IMG/VR virus record: IMGVR_UViG_3300046516_001459
Span: 1 to 42,388 of that record
Strand: one strand, 5' to 3'
Length of the DNA: 42,388 nucleotides
From: a virus
Position numbers and translations under genes: made by a program. Below are positions 6,010 to 36,279 of this stretch, piece by piece. Under the pieces are notes generated by a model. The model was not told the DNA's origin. It did no database searches and saw only the letters and a program-made list of their open reading frames with translations. Each line of letters starts with the position of its first letter. Position 1 is the first letter of the stretch.

Positions 6010-6453
6010 TTACTCGGCGATCCAGGCGGCGGTCCGCACCATCGCGGCGAGTTCCTGTGCACGGCCGCCCACCTGCCTCGCCCACACTGACCGCACCATC
6101 TCGATCGCCGCGAGGCTTGGATCGCCCCGCTCGAACGCGCCGATCATCCCCCGAAATTCCGCGAAGCCACGCGGGCCGAGATTGAACATCATATCGACGA
6201 GCGCGGCCTGTCGCACCGGCACCTGCGTGAGAAACCACTCCGGATAGATCGTTAGGAGCGCGAGTAGGGCGCGATTCACGTCGGTCTGAAACAGCACGTC
6301 GGACTCAACCCGCGAGATCCCCACGTCGGTCAGATTGCGTCCGATGCCGATCGTGATCTTCCCGCTGGTGTCGGTGTACGGCGTCAGCCGTTCGCCTTCG
6401 TGCCGGCGCAGCATCATCAAGAGCTTGCCGAGGGTGACGTCGTCCAGCTTCAT
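6010..6453 (-). CDS. GH24 phage lysozyme (endolysin)
   Basis: A 147-residue muramidase of the T4 lysozyme type that cuts the beta-1,4 bond between N-acetylmuramic acid and N-acetylglucosamine. The catalytic triad is visible as Glu19 (RRHEGERL), Asp28 (YTDTSG) and Thr34 (KITIGIGRNL), with the same 9- and 6-residue spacing as in T4 lysozyme. No signal peptide is present, so release probably depends on a holin. The frame is open further upstream, but the ATG at 6453 overlaps the stop of the holin-like gene (ATGA) and fits the family length. It is the last gene of the leftward late operon. Confidence 0.93.
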   Translation of the reverse strand: MKLDDVTLGKLLMMLRRHEGERLTPYTDTSGKITIGIGRNLTDVGISRVESDVLFQTDVNRALLALLTIYPEWFLTQVPVRQAALVDMMFNLGPRGFAEFRGMIGAFERGDPSLAAIEMVRSVWARQVGGRAQELAAMVRTAAWIAE

Positions 6454-6662
6454 GGGCGTGGCGACACGCTGTCGGCGTCCGCCTTCCCGGCCAGTGGAGA
6501 ATTCTGCAATTTGCCGATCGCCCAGGTCGAACAGAACAGAATGAATTTCAGCCAATCGCCGTACGACCACAGCACCGGCGGTCGCCCGTCGGCGGCGAGG
6601 TAGCCGACGAGCGCCCCCGCGGCCGCGAACCAGAGCACGGCGCTTTGTCGCGTGATTGTCAT
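6450..6662 (-). CDS. Putative holin, two membrane segments
   Basis: Seventy residues with two likely membrane helices: SAVLWFAAAGALVGYLAAD (about 7-25) and WLKFILFCSTWAIGKL (about 37-52). The C-terminus is polar. Size, topology and position directly before the endolysin with ATGA overlaps on both sides fit a small holin that makes the membrane lesion for endolysin release. No holin family signature is recognised, and the neighbouring 89-residue membrane protein could be the holin instead, with this one as an antiholin. Confidence 0.65.
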   Translation of the reverse strand: MTITRQSAVLWFAAAGALVGYLAADGRPPVLWSYGDWLKFILFCSTWAIGKLQNSPLAGKADADSVSPRP

Positions 6663-6928
6663 CGTCTATCCCGATCTGATCGACGCCGGCCGAAGACGTG
6701 TTCATCGAGCCGCGCGAGCGATTCCGCGTGGGTGCCCGTGCACTTGTCGAGTTCCTCGATCTTCTCCCCGTGCTCCTCGAGGCGTCGGTTAATTTCGCGT
6801 TGTCCGTCGCGGAGCGCCTGCAACGTCCCTTTAATCGCGTAGTACGCCCCGATGATCGTGACCACCATCGTGCCGGAGACAATCAAGTCGCCCAGCGTCA
6901 GACTGAGCTCGAGTTTCACGCCTGCCAT
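6659..6928 (-). CDS. Membrane protein with coiled coil (holin or spanin candidate)
   Basis: Eighty-nine residues. One membrane helix near the N-terminus (about 17-37, SGTMVVTIIGAYYAIKGTL) is followed by a charged heptad-like helix (REINRRLEEHGEKIEELDK) and a basic end. This shape is seen in small phage lysis proteins, including holin-like proteins and inner-membrane spanins. It is translationally coupled to the 70-residue membrane protein (ATGA). No lipoprotein partner lies next to it; the phage lipoprotein gene at 27480-27905 is far away. The exact role within the lysis set is uncertain. Confidence 0.6.
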   Translation of the reverse strand: MAGVKLELSLTLGDLIVSGTMVVTIIGAYYAIKGTLQALRDGQREINRRLEEHGEKIEELDKCTGTHAESLARLDEHVFGRRRSDRDRR

Positions 6929-6931
6929 TGG

Positions 6932-9900
6932 TCATTGGGCCCCACTCAAGCGGTCACGAAACTGCCGCTCGAACTCCGCGCGGTCTGGCTTGGGGACCCG
7001 CTGGAGCAATTGTTCGTAGCGCCCGCGCGCCCGCATCCGGTAGAAGTCACGGAGTTGCGTCGGCGAGAGCCCCCGCGTCGCAGAAGCGGCGGCCTCCGGA
7101 TCGCCGCCCGCGAGCGCTCGTGCCAAGTCTTCACGTGACAGCCGCGTCGCAATCCCGCGGCGGCGCTGCGCGTCGGCGACAAAGCCGTACGCGTCATCGA
7201 GCGCCTGCTGTTCGTTGGTCCCGCGCGTCGAGTGCAGCCCGAGCAGCGACAGGAAGCCTTCCCACCCTAAATGCGGCGCCTTGGGGCCGCCGGTGGCTGT
7301 CTGCTGCGGATGTTCACCGAAGCCGTGCTGGCGGAAATCGCCCAGCTCTTTCGCGAGCTTCGCGGGGTAGCGGGCCGAGAGCATCGTGCCCCCGCGCCGC
7401 GGGTCGACATCCTCGAGCAGCGAGTGATCCGCGGTCCCGCGCGCGTGCTGGTACGCGTCCTTCGCCGTGTCGACGAATACCGAGCCGGCCGCCTGGAGAT
7501 GGGGGAAAAACAAATTCGTGAACGCGATGCCCGTTGCCGCGGCGAGCCCTGTCACGCCGAGCGCGAAGCCGAGTCCGCGCCGGCGCACGCCGGGATCGGG
7601 ATGTCGCGCGACGTCGCTCATGTACTGGCTCATCACACTTGGATACTTCGTCAGCATCCGCATCGGGCCGAGCTGCCGGATGACGGGGTTGTCGCCAATC
7701 TCCCCGTAGACGCCGTGCACCTGATTCGTGACGTCGCGGGCCCAGCCGGCGGCCGTCTCGCGGTCGCTCCCAGCCTCGCGCGCGACCTTGAGCGCGCCGA
7801 GAAACGTCGCCTGCCGATTCGCGCGGTGCGCGCGGTCGATCGGATTCGTGATGGCGCCGACAAAGGCTCGCAGGGTGCTATTCGAGATGCGCCGCTCGAG
7901 CGCGTTCGGCTTCGGCGTCATCGCGAGTTCTCTGTTCGCGAGCGCTTTGCCGGCCGGCGTCCGGGCCTCTTTGAGTCCGCTGAGCACGCCCTTCGCGCCG
8001 ATCTGCGGATAGGCGGCGAGCACCTGGGCGCGCGTGAGTACTGCGGTGTCGGCGGCCGCGGCGAACAGTTTCGTGTAGATCGCCGTCTCGATCGCGCGGA
8101 GCGTTTTCCGCACGGTCTTTGGACTGAGGGACGTCACGTCGGAGGCGGCGCGTTCGACCATCGTCGGCAGGCCACGGAGCTGTTCGGCGTAGAGCTGCGC
8201 GTACCGCGCGGTGTTGGGCTGCCCGGCGTCCTTCGCCTGCTTCGCGTAGTCGTCAACCGATGCGATGGCTTCTTTCTGCCAGATGTTCCGGGTGACGCGC
8301 TGCCAGAGCGCGGCATCTTTCACGCCGGGCGGCGGCGGATCGGTGAGCGCGCGCCGGGCCTCGAGGAGATCCGGCTCGATTGTCTTCCAGAGTTCCGGCA
8401 AGGCGTGGAACGGTTGCGAGAACTTCTCGAGCGTGTTGAGTTCGGGGAGCGCCGGTTTACCGGCCCGGATGGCTTGCGTCCCGATCTTCGCGCCGGGCTC
8501 CGTCGCCATCTCTTTAAGGCCCTTGAGCACTGCCGGTGCCCGTCGGGCGAGTTCCGCGAGTAGGGCGCCTTTGACCGCGCCGGCGAGCGGGTCCTTGTCG
8601 AGCACGGCGCCGACGAGCGCCGCGCCGGACGTCCCCATGACGTGCCAGAACAGCCGCGGGTTCTGCTCGTAGAGCTTCTGGAGGCCGCCCAGCCCGGACG
8701 CGAGGTACTCGCCGGTGCGCGCGTTTTTCTTGAGCGTGTCGTCTTTCGACGTGCCGCCACGGAATTCCCGCTCCGCCTGCCGGTCGGCCGCTTCGCCCAG
8801 CAGTTTGGTGTACGTGTCCAAATTGGCTGGCGTGGGGTTCTCGAGCAGCTTCGCCCGGCTCCGGGCATCCTCGGTCATCTTCGCCTTGGCGAGCGCGGCC
8901 TCGGACTGCGTGACGGGCGTCTCGCGCTTGGCCGGCGGCGGCTCGAGGGGCCCGCGGTCCACCCGCTTGAGTCCCTCCGGCGCAGATGTTTCACGTGGAA
9001 CGTTGACCTCACCGGCCGGCACCCGGGTTTTCGCGAGCGCCGTCCGACGGTCCTGAATCCCCAACATCGTCGCTAGTTCGTCCGCTGGGACGCGCGGAGA
9101 CGTCTCTCCGAGGTTTGGCCGTGGCGTCGGGTTGGACGGCGCCTGGGGCCGCTGGACGCGTTCCTGGGCTATTCCAGCCTGCACGCCTTCCGGGTGCATC
9201 CGGACGCGATTCCCAATTTCGAGCGCTTTGTCGACGCCCATCGCGTCGACCTCGTCCGGCGAGTAGCCGAGTTGCCGGGTGAGGAAGTCCTTGACGTTGG
9301 TCTTCAGGCCCTCTTTGGGCGGGTAGACGACCGCCTGGATGTCCTGGTCGCCGCGGGCCCACGCCGCCACGGCGCGGTGCGTGCCGCCGGCAAGGTACAT
9401 CTGCCCGTCGCGGCCCTGGACGACGTTCACGGTGTCGGCGTTGTGGCGACCAACCGAGCCCGGCGGGACGCGCGAGAGCTCCGACGGGCCCTCGTCGAGT
9501 TTCGCCAGCACGCCGGCCTTGTCGACCGCGTCCTGGGTCGCGACGAGCTTGTCGAGCGGGACGCGCTGGAGCGTCGGCTTCGACAGGTCCGCCTCGGTGT
9601 TCGCCTTGTCCATCGCGCCGCGCTCGGCGACCGGGAAGGGGACACCCGTGTCGCCGAAGTGGCTCTGCACGGCCGGGAGCTGAGCCAACCGGTCTTCTGG
9701 CGCCGGCGTCTCGGCCAGTCCCGGCTGCACCTCGCCGCGGTCGGCGGCCTGCCGCTCGAGCGCGAAGGGGGCCTCTTCCTGCGGGGTGGCGTGTTCGGAT
9801 TCGCGCACCTCACCCACGTCGCCCGGCAGGCGCGGCTGGGCCTCGCCCGTGTCGAGTAGGTCCTCGACCGGGTCCTTCGCTTCGGCCGGCGGTTCGAAGG

Positions 9901-22187: not shown

Positions 22188-22832
22188 TTACACCGCCGCC
22201 GTGAAGGGCGTCGCCGCCGTGCCGCTCGAGGCGTAGTCGGCTTCAAGCGACCAGACGTTGGCCGCCAGGTCGATCAGTTCGATGAAGTCACCGATCGTGC
22301 CCAGCCCCGTGGTGCCGCGGTTGAACGTGATCGTGTCGGACTCGGTGGAGACGGTGCCCGTGTTCGCCGTGCCGAAGGTCGAGGCCGTGGCGCCGGAGAA
22401 CGTGTAGGCTTCCCCGCGCATGAAGTCGTTGGCATTCGCGACCTTCACCACCAGGGAGCCGCTCGTCAGCGTGGTGCCGACGAAGATGTAGTACCGCGCA
22501 CCTGAGCCGGTCGCCGCGGGCAGCGTGATTGTCGAACCGGAGGCGATGTTGACGACGAGGGTTTTCCCGGCATGGGTTCCCGGCACGAGCGTGAGCGACG
22601 CGGCCGTGAGCGAGATGGGCGCGCCGGCGCCGAGGTCGTCCGTCACGATGTTGTGGACGATCCCGTCGGCACCGAGATACTTGAAGCGGTTGTCGGCGGA
22701 ATCCACGACGCAATCGACTTCGGAGCCGGTCGCGTTTCGGAGCGACGCCACGGCGTTGAACCACAACGCGCGGATCGCCATGCTCGAGACGACGCCCGAA
22801 ACGACACAGAACAGAATCGCGATAACCTGCAT
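22188..22832 (-). CDS. Beta-rich virion protein with hydrophobic leader
   Basis: 214 residues from ATG at 22832, which has a GGGAGAG box at the right distance; a GTG at 22838 lies too close to it. Residues 1-17 (MQVIAILFCVVSGVVSS) are hydrophobic and are followed by a second Met18 and AIRALWFNAVASLRNA, which looks like a normal virion protein start. The body is Gly/Thr/Ala beta sequence (TLVVNIASGSTITLPAATGS, YYIFVGTTLTSGSLVVKV), as in head decoration or fibre-like proteins. No binding site precedes the internal ATG. The leader shares its length and AGC-ATG junction with the capsid and the 177-residue protein. Confidence 0.65.
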   Translation of the reverse strand: MQVIAILFCVVSGVVSSMAIRALWFNAVASLRNATGSEVDCVVDSADNRFKYLGADGIVHNIVTDDLGAGAPISLTAASLTLVPGTHAGKTLVVNIASGSTITLPAATGSGARYYIFVGTTLTSGSLVVKVANANDFMRGEAYTFSGATASTFGTANTGTVSTESDTITFNRGTTGLGTIGDFIELIDLAANVWSLEADYASSGTAATPFTAAV

Positions 22833-22928: not shown

Positions 22929-23462
22929 TTAGATCGCGGCGGCGATGATCGCGAAGCCCGTCGGCGCGTCCGCGACCGCGGATTTCGTGTTGCCGTTGTT
23001 GGTGGTGTGCGAGCCGAGCGTCAGACCCGTGCCGAACGGCAGGCCGTCACCGAACAGCGCGCAGTACTCGCGATTGCCGAGCGACTGCGACGAGACGCCC
23101 TGGCCCTTCAACTTGAAGGCGATGTCCGGCGCCGCGGCCGCGGTCGTCGCGTTATCCGAGCCCTTCAGCCACGCGTCCACCGTCGACGCCGAGGGCTTTT
23201 TGAAGTACAGCCCGAGCAACGCGCACGCGACGTTGGCGATGACGAAATCGGCCGTGTCGAGGCCCGAGAACGCGACGAACTGGAGGTCCGGGTTGCCGAG
23301 GGTGTCGATGTGCGCGAAGAGCGCGCGCAGCGCTTCCTGCGCGCCCGCCGAGCGGCCTTCCCCGCGCGCCTTGCGACGCGCGGTATTGGCGTCGGTCAAC
23401 GTCAGTACCATGCTGGTGAGGACGACGAGCGCGGCGATCAGTGCGTGAACGACGAAGTGCAT
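22929..23462 (-). CDS. Virion protein with hydrophobic leader
   Basis: 177 residues. An AAGGAG box (23468-23473) marks the ATG. Residues 1-17 (MHFVVHALIAALVVLTS) form a hydrophobic leader ahead of Met18-VLTLTDANTARRKARGEG, a sequence that looks like a natural protein start. Downstream are ALRALFAHIDTLGNPDLQFV, DTADFVIANVACALLGLYF and a Gly/Asn-rich C-terminus ending in hydrophobic FAIIAAAI. It is placed between head and connector genes and is probably structural. No family recognised. The 90 bases after its stop (22839-22928) hold only GC-rich sequence with no convincing signal. Confidence 0.62.
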   Translation of the reverse strand: MHFVVHALIAALVVLTSMVLTLTDANTARRKARGEGRSAGAQEALRALFAHIDTLGNPDLQFVAFSGLDTADFVIANVACALLGLYFKKPSASTVDAWLKGSDNATTAAAAPDIAFKLKGQGVSSQSLGNREYCALFGDGLPFGTGLTLGSHTTNNGNTKSAVADAPTGFAIIAAAI

Positions 23463-23474
23463 GATGGACTCCTT

Positions 23475-24730: not shown

Positions 24731-24760
24731 AAACGCGGGAAGGCCCGAAGACCTTCCCGC
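24731..24760 (-). terminator. Intrinsic terminator after the capsid gene
   Basis: On the minus strand GCGGGAAGG, loop TCTTCGGG and CCTTCCCGC form a nine-pair stem (24735-24760) followed by GTTTTC. The loop includes a stabilising TTCG. It lies 69 bases after the capsid stop, where strongly expressed capsid genes often have a partial terminator. The downstream genes are on the same strand, so read-through must occur or a further promoter must exist. Confidence 0.7.
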
Positions 24761-24828
24761 TGTCATGGCCCGGCCAGGGAAACCTGCGACTCCCCAGCCG
24801 AAAGTCCCGACCCAGCCGGGCCCGTCGG

Positions 24829-26190
24829 TTACGAGCCGGCTTCGCGGACGACGATGAGCGACTGACCCGTGATGCCGTCGAGCCGCCAGCAGGTGCCCGG
24901 GTAGCGCAGGTGGTTCTGGTAGCGCTTCCGGTACCACGCTTCGAACGCATCGCGCGCCGTGTCGCCAGTGCCGACGCGGACGAGCACGCGATTGTCCTCG
25001 TCGACCCAGCCGCCCGGATCGCTCTGGTAGCGCACCGCGCCCATGCCCTTGGTGTCGTAGCCGATCAGCCGCGCGAGCGGGTGCGTCCGCAGGGCTTTGA
25101 TCGGCACGCCGCCGAAGGGGATGTCGCCGTGCGTGAACGCCGTCGTGCCCGGATCGGGCTTGTTTAGGTCGTTCCCGTTGTAGCGGCGATCGGGCTGCGT
25201 GAACTTGATGACGAGCCGGCGCACCGAGTGATGCGCGGACATCAGGTCCGTGGTCCCCCCGAGGATCTGCTCCTGCACGTCCGCGACGGTCTGGAGCAGG
25301 TCTTCCGAGATGGCGCCCGTCGACGCCTTCACGTACGCCTTGTAGGCGGGGTACTTGTCGCGGGGCACGTTGAAATAGTTGTTGCGGAACGTGCCGTCAT
25401 CGACGAGCGCCATGATGCCCCACGCCGCGTGCTCGTAGCTCGAATCGAGCACGTCGGTGGCTGAGGCATTCGCGACCTGCACCATGTAATCGCGATTGAC
25501 CCAGGCCGCGTTCGGCGCCGCGTCCATCGTGATCGAGGTGCCGTCGCTCGAGGCCGAGACGACCTTCTGGACGCCCGCGCGCATTTCGCCCGTCGCCGGG
25601 TTCACCGCGCCGACGAACATGCCGGGGAGGTAGAAGCGGTTGCCGAAATCCGCGCCCGTCAGGTTGCCCGGCGCGTCGACGCCCATCGTGGCGGAGTTGG
25701 ACGGCGTCGCCTGATTGATGAGCGAGAGCACGCCGCGGCCGTCGGACGTGAGCGCGTACTCTTCCATGCGCGAGATGTCGTCGATCAGCCGCGTCATCTC
25801 GTCCTTGCGGGCGGATTTCCACGCGCCTTCCGACTTCATCGAATCGTGCAGGGCTTCCGAGGTGAGGCGCACGCGGGCCATGAGCTTCCGCTGGCCGATG
25901 TGCACTTTGACCGACTGCTGCGCGCCGGCGCCCGCGAACGCGGAATCTTCACCAACCCACATCGGGGAGGTGTTGCGCGACGTGTGCGCGTTGTACACGA
26001 CGTCGAGTCCGGCGTACTCCGCGGTTTCGGGTTTGAAAATCCCCTTGAAGGGGAATTTGTTGTTGACCTGTTCTGCGACGAAGTCCTCGTAGACCGTTTT
26101 ATAAATGCCCGAAACGGTCTGCGTGTTCGCGCCGGTCGCCATGCTGGCCGCGGCGAGCGCCGCGAGGGCCAGAAGAACCAAGACGCCCAT
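24829..26190 (-). CDS. Major capsid protein with N-terminal hydrophobic leader
   Basis: 453 residues. The AGGAGG box at 26199-26204 lies inside the end of the scaffold gene and fixes the ATG at 26190. Residues 1-16 (MGVLVLLALAALAAAS) are hydrophobic, then Met17-ATGANTQTVSGIYK looks like an ordinary capsid start, with no binding site of its own. The body has VVYNAHTSRNTSPMWVGEDS, QRKLMARVRLTSEALHDSMK, DDISRMEEYALTSDGRG and YMVQVANASATDVLDSSYE, a pattern I know from podovirus-type capsid proteins with the HK97 fold. Its position directly after the scaffold and before a strong terminator supports the call. Whether the leader remains in the virion is unknown. Confidence 0.8.
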   Translation of the reverse strand: MGVLVLLALAALAAASMATGANTQTVSGIYKTVYEDFVAEQVNNKFPFKGIFKPETAEYAGLDVVYNAHTSRNTSPMWVGEDSAFAGAGAQQSVKVHIGQRKLMARVRLTSEALHDSMKSEGAWKSARKDEMTRLIDDISRMEEYALTSDGRGVLSLINQATPSNSATMGVDAPGNLTGADFGNRFYLPGMFVGAVNPATGEMRAGVQKVVSASSDGTSITMDAAPNAAWVNRDYMVQVANASATDVLDSSYEHAAWGIMALVDDGTFRNNYFNVPRDKYPAYKAYVKASTGAISEDLLQTVADVQEQILGGTTDLMSAHHSVRRLVIKFTQPDRRYNGNDLNKPDPGTTAFTHGDIPFGGVPIKALRTHPLARLIGYDTKGMGAVRYQSDPGGWVDEDNRVLVRVGTGDTARDAFEAWYRKRYQNHLRYPGTCWRLDGITGQSLIVVREAGS

Positions 26191-26194
26191 GTGC

Positions 26195-27139
26195 CTATCC
26201 TCCTGTGCCGGACATGGCCTCCCGTGCCTGCGCCCATCCTCGAGCGTGCACGTCGTCCTCTGTCTCGGCTGCTGGTCGTGTGGGGGCCGTGGTCGTGACC
26301 GCTCCGCCGCCGCCGCCAACTGGCACCGGCGGACGATTCGCGTGCGTGGTCAACGCCTCGGCACTGCTGCTCCGTCGCATCGGGTCATACATGGCCGCGC
26401 GGTACACCGGCCAGAATTCCCCCACGAGATTCTCGAGGCGGTCGTAACGCGCCGTCCGCTGCGGGTCCGCCGCGACCCACCGCGAGAACGCGACGTCGAT
26501 GCCTTGCTTGGTCATCTCCGGAAGATCCGCGGCCGTCTTGCCCGGCCCGAGGAGCTTCGCAGCTTCCTCGTAGATGGCTTTGCACTGCGTGTCGGCGTGC
26601 GATTCGTAGAACGCGTTTTCCGCTTGCTGATAGCCCTGGATCGCCGAGAGCGCACCGTCGATGTCTCCCGAGCGTTCGGCCAGCTTGGCGAGGTTGTCCA
26701 GATTTCGCAGACCCGGGATGATCTGATAGAGCCGGTCCCGGACCCGTTGCGCCTGGGCCTCGTCCTCAGTGAGCGGAGCGGCAGGAGGAGGGGCGGCCGC
26801 GGGTGGTCGCGCCGTTCGGAGTTGCTCGACTTCTGCTCGAAGCCGTGTCACCTCCGCGCGCGCCGCCGCGTCGCTGGCCTCTGCCCGCCGACGAGCCTCT
26901 TGCAGCTCGTTCACCCGGTACCGTGGCACCGTGTCGGAGGAGTCGGCATCAGGCGACGCTGGCGGAGTGCCACTCGTCCCGGGTGGGGACGCCGGCGCCG
27001 CTACGGGCGCCGCGGCCGGCACGGATGCCGGCGGAGTCTCTGTCGTCGTCGGTGCAGCGGGGCTTTCGCTGCGTGTCGCGCCCGGTCCCAATGCCTCTGC
27101 CGGGAGATCAAAATCCGGCCAGTTCGTCTCGTCCGCCAC
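26195..27139 (-). CDS. Capsid scaffold protein
   Basis: 314 residues, GTG start. Acidic N-terminus followed by a long Pro/Ala/Thr-rich stretch to about residue 70, then a coiled coil (ELQEARRRAEASDAAARAEV, TRLRAEVEQLRTA), a second Pro/Ala linker, and a helical part (NLDNLAKLAERSGDIDGALS) to the C-terminus, which ends in AQAREAMSGTGG. Helical, low-complexity and located just ahead of the capsid gene with a four-base gap: all typical of a scaffold that guides prohead assembly and then leaves. No protease triad is visible, so release rather than proteolysis is expected. Confidence 0.78.
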   Translation of the reverse strand: MADETNWPDFDLPAEALGPGATRSESPAAPTTTETPPASVPAAAPVAAPASPPGTSGTPPASPDADSSDTVPRYRVNELQEARRRAEASDAAARAEVTRLRAEVEQLRTARPPAAAPPPAAPLTEDEAQAQRVRDRLYQIIPGLRNLDNLAKLAERSGDIDGALSAIQGYQQAENAFYESHADTQCKAIYEEAAKLLGPGKTAADLPEMTKQGIDVAFSRWVAADPQRTARYDRLENLVGEFWPVYRAAMYDPMRRSSSAEALTTHANRPPVPVGGGGGAVTTTAPTRPAAETEDDVHARGWAQAREAMSGTGG

Positions 27140-27479: not shown

Positions 27480-27905
27480 CTATTTGACTCCTGCCTGGAT
27501 GTTCGCGACGAGCTGCTGCACGATCGGCGTCTGCACGAGTTGGAGCGCAATCGTCAGCGCTTCCTGCACGGCGGCGTTGAGCGTCTTCGGGTCCGCCGCG
27601 CTGCCGGCGGCCGCGGCCACTTCGAAGGCGTGCTGGAGGTTGAAGGCGTCACGGAGCTTCGCGTTCAACTGCTGGTGACGCACGTCGGTGAGTTGGACGG
27701 TCGCCGCGGTCGGCGTGGTGCAGTGCTGCGCCGCCGGGCCGGTCGGCGAATGGTACGCGTCGGCGACACCGAAGCAGATTTGTGCTTCGATGTCCTGCGC
27801 GAGCGCGAGCGTATTGTGGGTCGCCGTCGCGACCTGGAGCGGTGTGGTGTGGCCTGCGCATCCGACGAGCGCGGCCAGCGCGATCAAGAGAAGCCAACGT
27901 CTCAT
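27480..27905 (-). CDS. Phage-encoded lipoprotein
   Basis: 141 residues with a clear lipoprotein signal: MRRW, a Leu/Ala core and LVGC with the lipid-carrying Cys at position 16. The mature part is helical, with one Cys pair (QICFG and QHCTTP) and a Gln/Ala-rich C-terminal helix (IALQLVQTPIVQQLVANIQA). It would be anchored in the host envelope. An outer-membrane spanin or a superinfection-exclusion lipoprotein are the obvious options; length exceeds most o-spanins and it is far from the lysis genes, so exclusion or envelope modification is also plausible. Confidence 0.68.
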   Translation of the reverse strand: MRRWLLLIALAALVGCAGHTTPLQVATATHNTLALAQDIEAQICFGVADAYHSPTGPAAQHCTTPTAATVQLTDVRHQQLNAKLRDAFNLQHAFEVAAAAGSAADPKTLNAAVQEALTIALQLVQTPIVQQLVANIQAGVK

Positions 27906-29234: not shown

Positions 29235-30997
29235 AGGGTTTCCTTACAGGGGATGGCCGCGAACGTCGCGTGCTTGGCATCCGGAAACAGATTCCGGCTG
29301 ATGAGCGCGCCGCCATCGGTCGAGAGGATGAAGGTTTCATCACTCGCGGCGGTGGGGACCCAGTGAATGTTGCCGCCGCTGTCGCGCGAGAGGTAGAGAT
29401 TGTCCTTCGTACGCTGCGCGAAGAGGGTCCCGTCGCCGTTGTCGAGTTTTTTGCACTCATCGACGGCGAAGCTGTTCGGCGAGCTGAAGACGTACAACAC
29501 AGTGGGTCCTTTCGGTGGTTCGGGTGTCGGGTCTGACGGCCACGGTGGCGCGTCCGGCGGGATCGCCATCACGCAGCCGGTCAATTCCGGCGTCATAACC
29601 GGGCCGCCGACGAGATAGAAGTCCGAGCGCGACGAGAGGGATCGATCGGAGAAGATGGCCGGCCCGTGCGGATTCGCGTAGACGATCTCCGCGTGGTGCG
29701 CTTCCCACCGGCACCAGCCCGCGCCTCGCGCGTAGTAGCCGACCTCGACAAACCGCCCGGGCTCATAGAAGCCGCCGGTGTCGTCGTAGGCCAGCCGGAT
29801 CGTTTCGAGGTGCCCGAGGTCCGGCCCCCAGTAGAAGTCCGCCCAGGCCGCGTCCAGCCACATCTTCCGGTTGACCGGATCACGATGTGACTCGCGGCAC
29901 GGATCGCGGACGTCCCACACTTCTTGGTGCTGGCCGCTGATGTAGGCGCCGGTCGGCGCCGCGGTGTAGACGAGCGGCCACGGGAGCTGACCGACGAACG
30001 GTTCGCCGATCGCCATGTGGCGCGGCCACCAGCGCGTATCGGTGAAGTGCATCGGCGTCGAACCGCTCGCATCCTCGAGGTGTCGGTAGCCGCCGGTGTC
30101 GAGCCGATACATCTCGTAGGCGCGGCCGGTCGGGATGATATCCCCGAACTTGATGATGAAGAAGAGGCCGGTCGCGTCCGGCTGCGTCTGGTGCTGCGGA
30201 TGCGTCGGTCCCCGCCGTGGCTGGAGCGCCGGAGACGTGGTGAGGAAGGCGACGATGTCGTAGACCTGCCCGTCAGCGGGACGGGGCGGTGACACCGGGC
30301 CAATCGGCGTCGAATCGGGTGGCGGCGTGGTTGGCTGTTCGTAGATCGGCAACGCGAGAAACTCCTCGACGGTGCCTTCGATCATCGACGCGTAGCCGGT
30401 CTTCACCATCGTGACCGTCACGAGATCGCCGACACGATGAGCGGTGAGGAATTTCGCGTCGCCGACTTCGATGAGCCGATGGTGCTTCCCGTCCCAGACG
30501 ATCGCGGCGGGACTCCACGCGTTCCAGCCGACGAGAAACGAGCGATCCTGCGCGAGCGACAGGTCCGTCCACTCGTAGACGCCATTGAGCGGCCCGGTCG
30601 TCTGGTCGCCGGTCATCACGACGTTCTGCGGCGTGACGTAGCGATAGCCCTGCGCGCCGGCGGCGCCGTTGTTGACGATCAGATCGCCGAGGTTGTCGAA
30701 GATGCACGGCTTGGTGCCGACCGGGAGCCGCGGATCTTCGGTCCACCCGGTGGATTTCCGCCAGACCGCGGCGCCGTGCGTGTCGGTGCTCGCACGCTGG
30801 CCGGCAATCGCGAATTCCGGCTGGGCGGCGCTGCCGCGCGTGATGACAGGAAAGAGGAGTGCGCTCGTTTCGCCGGGCGGAAAGGGAATCGTCCCGAGGT
30901 GCGTCTGGAGGAACTGCCCCGTCACATTGACCGCGTACTCGCCCGAGGGGAGATAGTCCCCTTCTCCGAGCGATGACGCGATCGTCCAGCGGTTCAT
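29231..30997 (-). CDS. Large unknown virion-associated protein
   Basis: 588 residues, Gly-, Trp-, Tyr- and Asp-rich, without signal peptide. Likely beta-sheet repeats occur throughout: VYEWTDLSLAQDRSFLVGWN, AIVWDGKHHRLIEVGDAKFL, GAGWCRWEAHHAEIVYANPH, DNLYLSRDSGGNIHWVPTAA. A Pro-rich linker near 235-255 (TPPPDSTPIGP) separates two halves. It may be a carbohydrate-binding or depolymerase component together with the adjacent 332-residue protein. The start overlaps the portal stop as ATGA. Function is not established. Confidence 0.6.
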   Translation of the reverse strand: MNRWTIASSLGEGDYLPSGEYAVNVTGQFLQTHLGTIPFPPGETSALLFPVITRGSAAQPEFAIAGQRASTDTHGAAVWRKSTGWTEDPRLPVGTKPCIFDNLGDLIVNNGAAGAQGYRYVTPQNVVMTGDQTTGPLNGVYEWTDLSLAQDRSFLVGWNAWSPAAIVWDGKHHRLIEVGDAKFLTAHRVGDLVTVTMVKTGYASMIEGTVEEFLALPIYEQPTTPPPDSTPIGPVSPPRPADGQVYDIVAFLTTSPALQPRRGPTHPQHQTQPDATGLFFIIKFGDIIPTGRAYEMYRLDTGGYRHLEDASGSTPMHFTDTRWWPRHMAIGEPFVGQLPWPLVYTAAPTGAYISGQHQEVWDVRDPCRESHRDPVNRKMWLDAAWADFYWGPDLGHLETIRLAYDDTGGFYEPGRFVEVGYYARGAGWCRWEAHHAEIVYANPHGPAIFSDRSLSSRSDFYLVGGPVMTPELTGCVMAIPPDAPPWPSDPTPEPPKGPTVLYVFSSPNSFAVDECKKLDNGDGTLFAQRTKDNLYLSRDSGGNIHWVPTAASDETFILSTDGGALISRNLFPDAKHATFAAIPCKETL

Positions 30998-33534
30998 TGC
31001 GTTTCGTGTCCTGACGGCGGCGCGGTGACGTCGGACACGTTACCACTTTCCTGGTTGCTGTTGTGCAACGCCCGTCCGGCCCCCACGCCATGCCCGTCCC
31101 GACCCACGGCGCGCCGATCGGCCGGTTGGCCGTTCCCATTGGGCGCGGGCCCGCGCATCGACGCCGGCGCCGGCGGCGCGCTCATCACCTGTTCGGTGCG
31201 ATCGAAGACTTCGCGCACCTGCGGATCGGCGAGGTCCTCCCCCTTGAACTGGTACTGTACCTTCACCGGCTGCGGCGGCTGCGTCTGCGCGAGGTGCTGT
31301 TGGTGCTGGGTGATCATGTTCGTGACAAACGGCATGATCGCGGGCTTCTGCGTCATCAGCGTTTGCATCGAGTCACCGTTCGCCCACTTGAGATGCTCCG
31401 CGAGGTGGACGTTCGAATCGTGCCACGCCTGGAGTTGCCCGGGCGGCGGCGCGTTCGGCTGCGGCGGCACCTGTCGCATCACGGGCTGTCCGGTCGTCGG
31501 GTCCGTAATCATCGCGCCGGTCGGGCCCTGCATCGGCGCTTGGGTCGGCGGGGCGAACTGCACGGTCGCGGCCCACTGCTCGAACGCTTCCTGCTCGCGG
31601 CGGGCGCCGGTGACCTGCGCGTCGAGGCCCGGATAGAGGTCGGTGCGGCCGAACACCTGAAGAATGCGGTAGCCCGTCTCCGGGTTCTTCGCGTCGATGA
31701 CGCCGAGGCCCTGGAGCTGTTGAATCGCGGCGCGCGTGCCGAGCGAGGTTTTCGGCATCTGCGATCCGTCTTCGACTTCGATCCGGATCGAGCCGTCGAG
31801 ACTCGCCTTCTGGAAGACCGATCGCTGCCACGCGCCGTTGGGCCCCATGATCGCGGTCGCGCGTTCGTCGGGCCCGAGTTGCCGCTCCATCTCGAGCGCG
31901 ATCTTGAACCAGTTGCGATAGGTCGCGCCGCGCGCCTCGAGCACCGTCCCGTAGCGCGACTGCGAGCGCTCGACGAGCAGTTGCATCGCGGAGAACGCTT
32001 CGACGCCGGCCGGCTTCGCGCCTTTCATGATGTCGTAGGTGCCGGCGAGCTGCTCGATGTCGGCGAGGATCATCTCGCGGATGCTGACGAGCGACGACGG
32101 GACCTGCTCGCCGGGAATGCGCTCCGGCTTCGCATTGCCGCCGGCGGCGATCGGGTTGTACTTCACGACGAGGCCGGGCTCGCCCGAAAACTTCGTGACC
32201 TCGCTCCCTTTCGGCTCGAGCCAGACGGGATTCGCGGTGCGCTGGACGATCAGTTGAATCAGGGAATCGATCTGATTGAGCTGATTCTGTTTTTCGATCA
32301 GCGACTCGAGCGGCGAGCGCGCCCAGCCGCGGCCGCCGAACTTCACATAGCCGGTGTGCAGCCACGTCCAGAGGAAGCGGCCGTCCGCGGTCTTGTAGGG
32401 GAGCGGTCCCGGCAGGCCCTCTTCCGGCAGCCGCAGCACCATGCCGGACGCGCCGTCGCCGCCGACCGTGTTCACCACGCGCAGCACGAGGCCCTGCGGG
32501 AAATCCTTGCTGGGCTTCTCCCACATTTCCGACTCGGTGACGCCTTCCTGCTCTGTCGGTTCGCCGGAGATGCTGCTGTTGGGGAGCGACGAGACTTCGT
32601 TGGTCGCGGCAAGCGATCGGAGGAGCTGCAAACTGCGTTCGCTCGCGACCGTCTCCCATTGAATCTTCGCCATCTGCTCTGGCGTGAGCCGCGACTCGTA
32701 GTATTCCTTCGTCCGCCACCGCCGGCGGATGATCACGTCGGAATCGTTCGGGTCCGAGAACGCGAGCGGGTAGGCGATTTCGAGCGGTGAGCACGCGTCG
32801 GTGCAGCCGTGGCCTTTCCGCAGCGTCTCGCCGACGGGCTGGCCGTTCTGATCGGTCGCTGGATTGAGAATCGGCGAGCCGCACGCCGGACACATATGCC
32901 CGGCTTTCTGGACGGCGACGGGCGACGACGTGACCTTGCACGCGGCGCATTGTTCGTAGGAGACAAACGCCGTCGCGGAATCGCCGGAGTAGTCCCACCA
33001 CACATGCAGGAACGTGTTGCCAAGCGCGCCGAGCCACCAGTCCGCTTCCCGCTGCACGCGCGACCACTGATGGTCGGTGCGCAGCGGCGCTTCGTACTTC
33101 GAGGCGGTTTCCGCGGCGGTGATGTCGCTGGGCGTCGCGCCTTCGGGGCGCACGGCGACGGCCAGTTCCACGCTCTGGAAGACGGAGAGAATCGTGTCGA
33201 GCGTCTCGAGGATTTTGTTCGTGACGGGCCGCGGAATCCACTTCTGCAACCGCTTGTCGACCCAATTCCCGACGGCGCGCTCGAAATAAATCCACTGCCG
33301 GCCGAGCAGGTACAGCAGCAGTCGCCACCACACACGTTCGAACGACACGCGGCGATCGGCGCACCGGCGCGCGTTTTTCTGGAAGCGCTCGAGCAGCTTC
33401 GCGTCGTCCTGGAGCGGATCTTTCGGCTCGTCTGGCGTCGCGTTGGGATCGAGCGCGCGCGAGACGGCGGCATCGAGCCCGGGCGGGTTCGGGCCGACAT
33501 CGGGCGGCGAGATGGCGTTGGTCACCCCGATCAT
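30994..33534 (-). CDS. Portal protein with inserted zinc ribbon
   Basis: 846 residues, within the size range of podovirus portals. Typical portal segments are RFQKNARRCADRRVSFERVW, KWIPRPVTNKILETLDTILS, GRGWARSPLESLIEKQNQLN and EQLAGTYDIMKGAKPAGVEA, followed by GATYRNWFKIALEMERQLG. Unusually, residues 196-218 hold CAAC and CPAC, with further Cys at 244 and 248, a zinc ribbon inserted into the wing region. The C-terminal 170 residues are Gln/Pro-rich and probably disordered. The portal forms the DNA entry ring and binds terminase. GAGGTAA precedes the ATG. It is followed by two large virion genes, an unusual order. Confidence 0.85.
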   Translation of the reverse strand: MIGVTNAISPPDVGPNPPGLDAAVSRALDPNATPDEPKDPLQDDAKLLERFQKNARRCADRRVSFERVWWRLLLYLLGRQWIYFERAVGNWVDKRLQKWIPRPVTNKILETLDTILSVFQSVELAVAVRPEGATPSDITAAETASKYEAPLRTDHQWSRVQREADWWLGALGNTFLHVWWDYSGDSATAFVSYEQCAACKVTSSPVAVQKAGHMCPACGSPILNPATDQNGQPVGETLRKGHGCTDACSPLEIAYPLAFSDPNDSDVIIRRRWRTKEYYESRLTPEQMAKIQWETVASERSLQLLRSLAATNEVSSLPNSSISGEPTEQEGVTESEMWEKPSKDFPQGLVLRVVNTVGGDGASGMVLRLPEEGLPGPLPYKTADGRFLWTWLHTGYVKFGGRGWARSPLESLIEKQNQLNQIDSLIQLIVQRTANPVWLEPKGSEVTKFSGEPGLVVKYNPIAAGGNAKPERIPGEQVPSSLVSIREMILADIEQLAGTYDIMKGAKPAGVEAFSAMQLLVERSQSRYGTVLEARGATYRNWFKIALEMERQLGPDERATAIMGPNGAWQRSVFQKASLDGSIRIEVEDGSQMPKTSLGTRAAIQQLQGLGVIDAKNPETGYRILQVFGRTDLYPGLDAQVTGARREQEAFEQWAATVQFAPPTQAPMQGPTGAMITDPTTGQPVMRQVPPQPNAPPPGQLQAWHDSNVHLAEHLKWANGDSMQTLMTQKPAIMPFVTNMITQHQQHLAQTQPPQPVKVQYQFKGEDLADPQVREVFDRTEQVMSAPPAPASMRGPAPNGNGQPADRRAVGRDGHGVGAGRALHNSNQESGNVSDVTAPPSGHETQ

Positions 33535-34434: not shown

Positions 34435-34753
34435 GGTGCACCGCTTTCTCGATCGCGGCCTGCTCTGCGATCACCGCGCGCATGTGATCGCGCGTCCGTC
34501 GCAGCGCGCGGAGTTTCGCGCCGCGCGTGGGTCCGAGGGGCACGAGAATGATCGCGGGAAAGGCGCCGCCCACAATTTCGGCGACGCGCAGATGCACGCC
34601 CTTGAACGGCAGCAGTTCGCCGCGGCGGAAGTCCCGAAAGACGTCGGGGACCGGCTGCGCCCGCTGCGCCTTCAGGTCATCGTTGGCGAGGGTCCACCGG
34701 CGCACGGCGAGTTGCAGCGCGCGGATCGGATGCGCGAACACGTTCAGCCTCAC
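34421..34753 (-). CDS. Unknown basic late protein next to terminase
   Basis: 110 residues starting with GTG that overlaps the terminase stop (GTGA). Strongly basic at both ends (HPIRALQLAVRRWTLAND and RALRRTRDHMRAVIAEQ), with a central hydrophobic strand pair (GAFPAIILVPLGPT). The charge suggests nucleic acid contact. There is no recognised family. Confidence 0.58.
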   Translation of the reverse strand: MRLNVFAHPIRALQLAVRRWTLANDDLKAQRAQPVPDVFRDFRRGELLPFKGVHLRVAEIVGGAFPAIILVPLGPTRGAKLRALRRTRDHMRAVIAEQAAIEKAVHRATR

Positions 34754-36279
34754 AGCCAGAAATCTCCTGCGGAAACGTCCTCCAGCATACCCGGCGGGTC
34801 AAGTTCGGTCGCGAAAAAGGGAATCTCCTCCGGCGCGCGCGGGCGATGTTCACGCCGGCGCATCTCCTCGATTTCGTAGCGCGTGAGCTCGTCGAAGTCT
34901 GAGAGATCGCGCTTGCCTCCCGAGGGCGATGGGTCGGGCGTCTCGAGCGTCGGGCCGCCCATCAGCAGGTAGCGCGTCGCGTCGGGCAGATCGTCTTTCC
35001 GCTTGAAGACTTTTTCTTTGCGCGTCTGCCCGTCGGGGCTCGTGTTCTCGGCCCAGCGATAGTTGCGGTGTTGGTCGACGCACTGCGGCACGCCGAGGCG
35101 CGGGTCCGCTTCGGGGAGGAGGAACCAGAGCTGCTTCTGCGCGAGCCAGGACTGCACGCGGCGAATGCCGTCTTCGACCTGATTCGGCGCCGGCGTGAGG
35201 TAAATGCCGTAACGCGGCTGCGCGAGTTCGATCATGAACTGCCGCTGCGATTTGTCGCAGCACCAGCGCGAGGGATCGAAGGGCCGGGACGGATTCCAGC
35301 GCGCGCACATTTGCTCGAGGCCGAAGACGTGCTCGTGAATCGGCTTGAAGTTCGACAAGTACTCGCCGACGAGCACGAGGCCGCGCGGGCCCATGACGCC
35401 GAGCACCGCGGCGAAGGGATGATCGCCGCCCGGATCGACGCCCACATACGCCGTGCGCGACGGGTCGATGTGCGGCCACTCCGGCAGCACGCGCTTGATC
35501 TGCTCGTCGGTGCGGACGATTTGCGAATCGAGCAGGGCGCCGTAGATCGCGCCCTCGAACGTCACGAAGTCCGCTTCGAATTCCTGTTGATAGAACAGCG
35601 GGTCCATCGACGCTTTCGCGTCGGCGAGTTCGGCTTGGCCCTCCGGCGTCTGGTAGAGCGGATTGTCCGCGGTTTTGTATTTCACCGCGAAGTACCCGGG
35701 CCGGCCCTGGAGCGCGGGGAGCCAGAAGGTTTCGTAGCACCAATCGAAGCCGTTGGGCGACGTGGTGAAAAACGCTTGGCCGCGCTTGTCGGTCAGCGCC
35801 GGCAGCATCGTGTTCCACGCGAGCTGCTGCACCTTGCGCGTCTCGTCGATCCACGCCCAATCGAGCCCGGGGCCGCGCGCCTTTTCCGGATCGTCGAGCG
35901 AGCGGAACATCGCCTGCGCGTAGTTCTTCAGTTCGAGCGTGTAGTGCTGTTCGGACCAATCCCCGATCCACGCGTGCGGAATCGTTTTGAACACCTGCGG
36001 GATGACGAAGTCGTGGAGGTCGGGATAGGTCGGGGCGCAGATCCAGCCGAGCGAGGGATTCGAGCGATCCGACGGCAACGTCGACATCCGATCGCCGACG
36101 GCGACGCCGCCGATGACGGTCTTGCCACCGCGCCGGCCGGCAATCGCCGTGACGCGATGGAACGCGTGCCGGCCGCCGGGCGTGCGCTGGCGAATCGCGG
36201 AGAGAAACGCCTGCTGATGCGGGTTGTAGCCGAGCGAGAGAATCCCGGTCGGGTTTCCGCGGACTTCTTTACCGGCCAT
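34750..36279 (-). CDS. terL: Terminase large subunit
   Basis: 509 residues, the ATPase-nuclease motor that packages DNA through the portal. Walker A is AGRRGGKT (47-54), Walker B LDWAWIDE with Asp145 and Glu146, and the coupling motif is FTTSPNG (171-177). The nuclease domain starts with VGVDPGGD (Asp282) and has Glu307 in VGEYLS, and the KRKDDLPDATRYL segment (Asp433) near 427-437 as the last acidic site. Domain order and length are standard. The ATG overlaps the end of the DUF3008 gene by 11 bases. By eye the packaging class (headful or cohesive end) cannot be decided. Confidence 0.93.
   Translation of the reverse strand: MAGKEVRGNPTGILSLGYNPHQQAFLSAIRQRTPGGRHAFHRVTAIAGRRGGKTVIGGVAVGDRMSTLPSDRSNPSLGWICAPTYPDLHDFVIPQVFKTIPHAWIGDWSEQHYTLELKNYAQAMFRSLDDPEKARGPGLDWAWIDETRKVQQLAWNTMLPALTDKRGQAFFTTSPNGFDWCYETFWLPALQGRPGYFAVKYKTADNPLYQTPEGQAELADAKASMDPLFYQQEFEADFVTFEGAIYGALLDSQIVRTDEQIKRVLPEWPHIDPSRTAYVGVDPGGDHPFAAVLGVMGPRGLVLVGEYLSNFKPIHEHVFGLEQMCARWNPSRPFDPSRWCCDKSQRQFMIELAQPRYGIYLTPAPNQVEDGIRRVQSWLAQKQLWFLLPEADPRLGVPQCVDQHRNYRWAENTSPDGQTRKEKVFKRKDDLPDATRYLLMGGPTLETPDPSPSGGKRDLSDFDELTRYEIEEMRRREHRPRAPEEIPFFATELDPPGMLEDVSAGDFWL

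Follow-up and report, generated by a model that had tools for sequence, protein, structure and literature searches.

Predicted hydrophobic leaders recur on the major capsid proteins of a tailed-phage family

Comparison of a viral genome with its relatives suggested that hydrophobic N-terminal leaders on the major capsid protein are a recurrent trait of one tailed-phage family, sometimes extending to other head proteins, and not an oddity of one genome. The leaders look like short, fast-changing tags resembling membrane anchors, and they could account for the assembly of some phage heads at the membrane of the host cell. The stretch of DNA analyzed, hereafter the window, comprises the 42,388 bases of an IMG/VR virus record. 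Relatives were obtained by scans of a viral collection, which yielded over 100 loci (L numbers below); nearly all of the data are metagenomic, and start sites were inferred from the sequence.

Head genes and leaders of the window

The head genes lie on the minus strand in the order terminase (34750–36279), portal, scaffold-like gene, capsid, p209, p190, p177, p214, and further virion genes. The portal is P22-like (30994–33534; phrog_156, E value 9e-19) and, having no leader, served as a control. The scaffold-like gene (26195–27139) was assigned by its position immediately 5′ of the capsid gene and by 26–28% identity to its L003 and L005 equivalents, and it carries no hydrophobic tag in the window. 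The capsid gene (24829–26190) encodes 453 amino acids including the leader. Its identity as an HK97-fold capsid is secure because it matches PHROG 14242 (major head protein; E value 5e-16), residues 17–443 of its model align to solved HK97-fold shells with Z scores of up to 18.1, and its distant relatives (L029) have matches among the annotated capsids of phages of Arthrobacter and Microbacterium. P177 (22929–23462), with a beta-sandwich at the end of its model and weak fold matches, is probably a virion protein of the decoration type; p214 (22188–22832) is also a probable virion protein, and the virion positions of both are likewise probable assignments. PDB sequence searches with the capsid and p177 gave no credible match. 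Genome scans for a host gave none with the capsid, and just approximately 30% identity on two MAG contigs with the portal.

Some minor features were observed in this region. A G + C-rich inverted repeat between the capsid and p209 genes (24734–24765; cgggaaggcccgaagaccttcccg) is possibly a transcription terminator. A small lipoprotein-like gene lies between the portal and scaffold genes (window 27480–27905; L123 983–1216; MRRWLLLIALAALVGCAG, L003 version MIRRLWLLALLVALSGSCARG), and in a rough scan of the portal–scaffold region only two leader-bearing relatives of the window clade had it. The near-identical contig L002 lacks 14 bases of the scaffold-like gene (window 26857–26870), which shifts the frame, and is otherwise identical to the window over the aligned 13.4 kb.

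The sequence-only reading had described matching hydrophobic leaders on the capsid and two neighboring proteins, each ending in Ser before a second Met, and the translations agreed exactly. The leaders are MGVLVLLALAALAAAS on the capsid (16 residues; 26143–26190), MHFVVHALIAALVVLTS on p177 (17 residues; 23412–23462), and MQVIAILFCVVSGVVSS on p214 (17 residues; 22782–22832), all on the minus strand, and in each the codon AGC precedes an inner ATG (26140–26142 in the capsid). Ribosome binding sites were found ahead of the leaders, namely AGGAGG at a spacing of 8 bases for the capsid (26199–26204), AAGGAG at 6 for p177 (23469–23474), and GGAG at 7 for p214, and none was found ahead of the three inner ATGs. 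It also held true that the intervening genes p190 and p209 and the connector-side genes have no such leaders, and that all three leaders, unlike the secreted proteins of the phage itself, lack Arg or Lys before the hydrophobic core.

The window leaders are not due to chance. Their 15-residue Kyte–Doolittle means are approximately 2.4–2.5, and only 0.8% of stop-free 22-codon stretches in the window DNA reach even 1.9. Base-shuffles that were stop-free and equally hydrophobic occurred in 0 of 5000 cases for the capsid, 0 of 5000 for p177, and 15 of 5000 for p214. In 52 leaderless capsid genes, the 22 in-frame codons upstream always contained a stop and never scored above 0.6, with stops given a strongly negative score.

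Other origins were considered and rejected. A short-match DNA search for copying of the leaders from each other or from elsewhere in the genome returned only pieces of at most 18 bases with weak E values. An assembly artefact is contradicted by L002, a separately assembled contig that carries the leaders base for base, although it may be the same virus. A dual start, with the normal capsid made from the inner ATG, is unlikely because the inner ATG has no ribosome site and several relatives that bear a leader no longer have the inner Met.

Relatives place the ancestral start at the inner ATG. Most relatives' capsids start with MAGADTQ, MGADKQ, or similar, directly after a ribosome site. The p177 homologues of L003, L004, and L005 begin at the second Met of the window protein, and a ribosome site and a stop codon lie a short distance upstream; L003 reads gtaaggaggaaacgtagATGGCG there, whereas the window reads gtaaggagtccatcATG and reaches the old ATG only after another 16 leader codons. 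Among nearly 60 p177 homologues, the leader was present only in the window (with its near-identical contig) and in L071. The p214 homologues of L003 and L005 start with MAVR or MAIR, which corresponds to the second Met in the window. In the proposed comparison with homologues, those of p177 and p214 began at the second Met, but five of the seven window-clade capsids have hydrophobic leaders, of unrelated sequence. In a separate observation, L096 encodes two adjacent p177 homologues (6159–6659 and 6750–7250).

Leaders among related phages

One leader-scoring procedure, with a strict and a looser hydrophobicity cut-off, was applied to all protein families. Of 93 capsid relatives of the HK97 fold, 9 carried a hydrophobic leader under the strict cut-off and 12 under the looser one; leaders were also present on 2 of 58 p177 proteins and 1 of 13 p214 proteins. 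These viruses had none on their portal, connector, and tail-side genes (0/210; Fisher p = 2e-5, strict); the leaderless control families were 50 portals, 62 p190, 16 p209, 31 p243, 31 p132, and 20 tail genes. T7-type capsids, which are less diverse, also had none (0/79). The majority of relatives are leaderless.

The leaders of L003 (MFPTLAALALLGFGILG, followed by Met), L056 (MGPETCTLLALLLGASAFG, followed by Met), and L004 (MRAAAALVCLFVVSLVSSAAGFPLFGPTAVI) are hydrophobic but unrelated in sequence, and no ribosome site could be recognized upstream of the L004 leader. Those of L060, L067, and L068/L129, also hydrophobic, are 33–36 residues long. A hydrophobic leader is also borne by the L020 capsid (36% identical), weaker ones were found in L052, L070, L071, and L121, and L071 has leaders on both its capsid and p177. 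Where the second Met is kept in leader-bearing relatives, it has no ribosome site; in L004, L052, L070, and L071 it has been lost. The relatives' leaders end in other residues, mostly Gly, so the Ser–AGC–ATG junction was rejected as a common signal and is an accident of the window genome. What stands of the original interpretation is that the leaders are real and look translated, with hydrophobicity under selection.

Two further kinds of N-terminus were noted. Capsid extensions that are not hydrophobic occur in L089 and L090 (5905–7305; MSTWINTKVVIDMATGDILENEGYLYSGPVAEA), with a similar one in L120 (3424–4845) and another non-hydrophobic one in L100. Classical Sec-type signal peptides, such as MRRVLMFVAASLLAVVGIAAVQPACAGAV, are encoded by genes situated among the virion genes 3′ of the capsid in L068 (7550–8215), L054 (10038–10649), L051 (10354–11301 and 11319–12677), L007 (10022–10414 and 10965–11855), L006 (10928–11422), and L023 (8942–9436).

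A capsid tree built with the leaders left out requires repeated gain or loss of the leader, with at least seven events, five of which cannot be avoided given well-supported branches. Leader-bearing capsids cluster on the tree, the trait being present in five of seven window-clade members and all three members of the L060 clade. The capsid bodies of L060 and L067 are 91% identical (dN 0.06, dS 0.62) and their leaders only 26%, yet both leaders are strongly hydrophobic. The reading frame of the leaders is kept, and their third-position GC is mostly coding-like. These patterns are consistent with selection for hydrophobicity and not for sequence, and HK97-fold capsid proteins have repeatedly accepted hydrophobic N-terminal tags.

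Possible roles of the leaders

Membrane tethering, one of the roles originally suggested, remains the best reading, although membrane insertion and an assembly role are tentative; of the other roles suggested, a cleaved assembly signal or an interior function may apply instead. The leaders could plausibly be targeting or anchoring segments, added ahead of ordinary head proteins, that recruit head subunits to the cytoplasmic membrane, where procapsids would assemble. The leader and the first residues of the protein would together form approximately a single transmembrane helix of about 20 residues; in some relatives the hydrophobic stretch is 28–40 residues long and contains a Pro/Gly/Asn turn, which could make a hairpin. 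On leaving the ribosome, the leader would become inserted in the cytoplasmic membrane or bound to it while the protein body probably stays in the cytoplasm, concentrating shell subunits at the site where the portal starts the procapsid, and the leader may later be removed or withdrawn. Over 19 residues, the mean hydropathy is 2.21 for the capsid, 2.44 for p177, and 2.25 for p214, relative to the value of at least 1.6 expected of a transmembrane anchor, which is also reached by most capsid leaders, the L071 p177, and the transmembrane-like segment, MVELAGFWNVHGGVLTLLLALSLFVLGQIVV, with which the L056 scaffold begins. In p177 and p214, Arg or Lys directly follows the helix and none precedes it, so a cytoplasmic body is favored by the positive-inside rule.

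Several observations speak against anchoring. The chief difficulty is that the modeled capsid N-terminus, when aligned with HK97 and T5 proheads, falls close to their delta-domain junction. This junction is a luminal position, so an anchor there would have to do its work while the shell is still open or else be removed; in the subset of genes scanned, no protease family was recognized. In addition, the capsid leaders of L052, L070, and L071 are only weakly hydrophobic, and most relatives manage without leaders. In the L060 group, Lys or Arg precedes the helix, an arrangement that fits a hairpin or the reverse topology, and the L004 leader lacks a recognizable ribosome site.

The same alignment of the residues just past the leader is what would be expected if the leader lay inside the procapsid like a very short delta domain, binding the scaffold or neighboring leaders hydrophobically with no membrane role. 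We consider this possible but unlikely. Scaffold N-termini also lend it some weight: aromatic or hydrophobic ones were found in 6 of 10 leader-bearing and 3 of 49 leaderless viruses (Fisher p = 3e-4), by a criterion chosen after inspection and with one leaderless case (L126) that looks false by eye. The scaffolds of several leader-bearing viruses have a short aromatic, basic start followed by a Gly-rich linker, and those of leaderless relatives are usually hydrophilic at the start; testing on the tree whether capsid leader and scaffold tag go together had too little power. A luminal peptide accounts for the capsid leader but not for those of p177 and p214, two proteins for which a place within the shell is not expected, and it leaves the transmembrane-strength hydrophobicity unexplained. 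The delta domain of HK97 and T5 is likewise an N-terminal extension of an HK97-fold capsid in the same topological place; it spans about 100–160 residues, does the scaffolding in place of a separate scaffold gene, and is cut off by a phage protease. The leaders here differ in being mostly 16–36 hydrophobic residues (16 in the window), with a separate scaffold-like gene preceding the capsid and no protease recognized among the genes scanned.

A more radical form of membrane association seems improbable. In it, HK97-fold shell subunits would be made as integral membrane proteins, the head would take shape within the bilayer or on its surface, and anchors would have arisen several times, on the capsid, the scaffold, and decoration-type proteins; at the extreme, some lipid or an anchor peptide would be kept in the virion.

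That the leaders are Sec-type signal sequences, directing export or being cut by signal peptidase like the secreted proteins of the family, is doubtful indeed. Like signal peptides, they are short N-terminal hydrophobic segments that drift rapidly in sequence, and nearby virion-module proteins of several relatives do carry classical signal peptides. By eye, the small residues at −3/−1 in AAS (capsid) and VSS (p214) could suit signal peptidase I and LTS does not; the leader of L004 contains an Arg as well as a small-residue c-region, and a positive residue before the core is also present in L060, L067, and L129. However, the window leaders lack a positive n-region and belong to proteins that have to remain cytoplasmic; export of an HK97-fold capsid would be unexpected because DNA packaging takes place in the cytoplasm. 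No lipobox Cys was found in the window leaders, the Cys of p214 lying in ILFC.

It is very improbable that start-codon drift simply added harmless residues that are hydrophobic by chance. The fast divergence of the leaders, their absence from many relatives, and the non-hydrophobic extensions of L089, L090, L100, and L120 would fit such tolerance, but 12 of 17 capsid extensions of at least 8 residues are hydrophobic, whereas none of the 16 in other families is (p = 2e-5), and stop-free base-shuffles almost never equal the strongest leaders, although 7–13% match the weaker ones of L020, L071, and L121. There is equally little likelihood that production of head proteins is tuned through SRP, trigger factor, or GroEL, called in by the hydrophobic nascent chain. 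Capsids of other phages do need GroEL, and the affected proteins are presumably abundant in virions, but most relatives fold the same capsid without a leader and other virion genes lack the trait.

Comparison with known assembly systems

Among the titles and abstracts of the open-access literature, no hydrophobic leader on a tailed-phage capsid was found. Head assembly is linked to the cytoplasmic membrane in other tailed phages: T4 heads assemble on the inner membrane (PMC3185693), head assembly of jumbo phages is membrane-associated (PMC9067925), and SPP1 procapsid precursors form at the membrane, the mechanism by which tailed-phage procapsids attach to the host membrane being stated as unknown (PMC13212656). 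The window's family would resemble them in this respect, its membrane association being putative. SPP1 depends on its portal and is not reported there to have a hydrophobic capsid tag (PMC13212656), whereas the tags in the window family sit on the capsid, p177, p214, and one scaffold, not on the portal. Close relatives with and without a genetically encoded hydrophobic capsid tag would make the question of membrane attachment directly testable.

Another likeness is offered by Inovirus pVIII, a coat protein that is anchored in the inner membrane before assembly and whose leader is sometimes cleaved (PMC3185693). Anchoring of a phage coat protein before assembly would be common to both, but pVIII is an unrelated small helical coat protein of filamentous phages, and the protein described here is an icosahedral HK97-fold capsid of a tailed phage.
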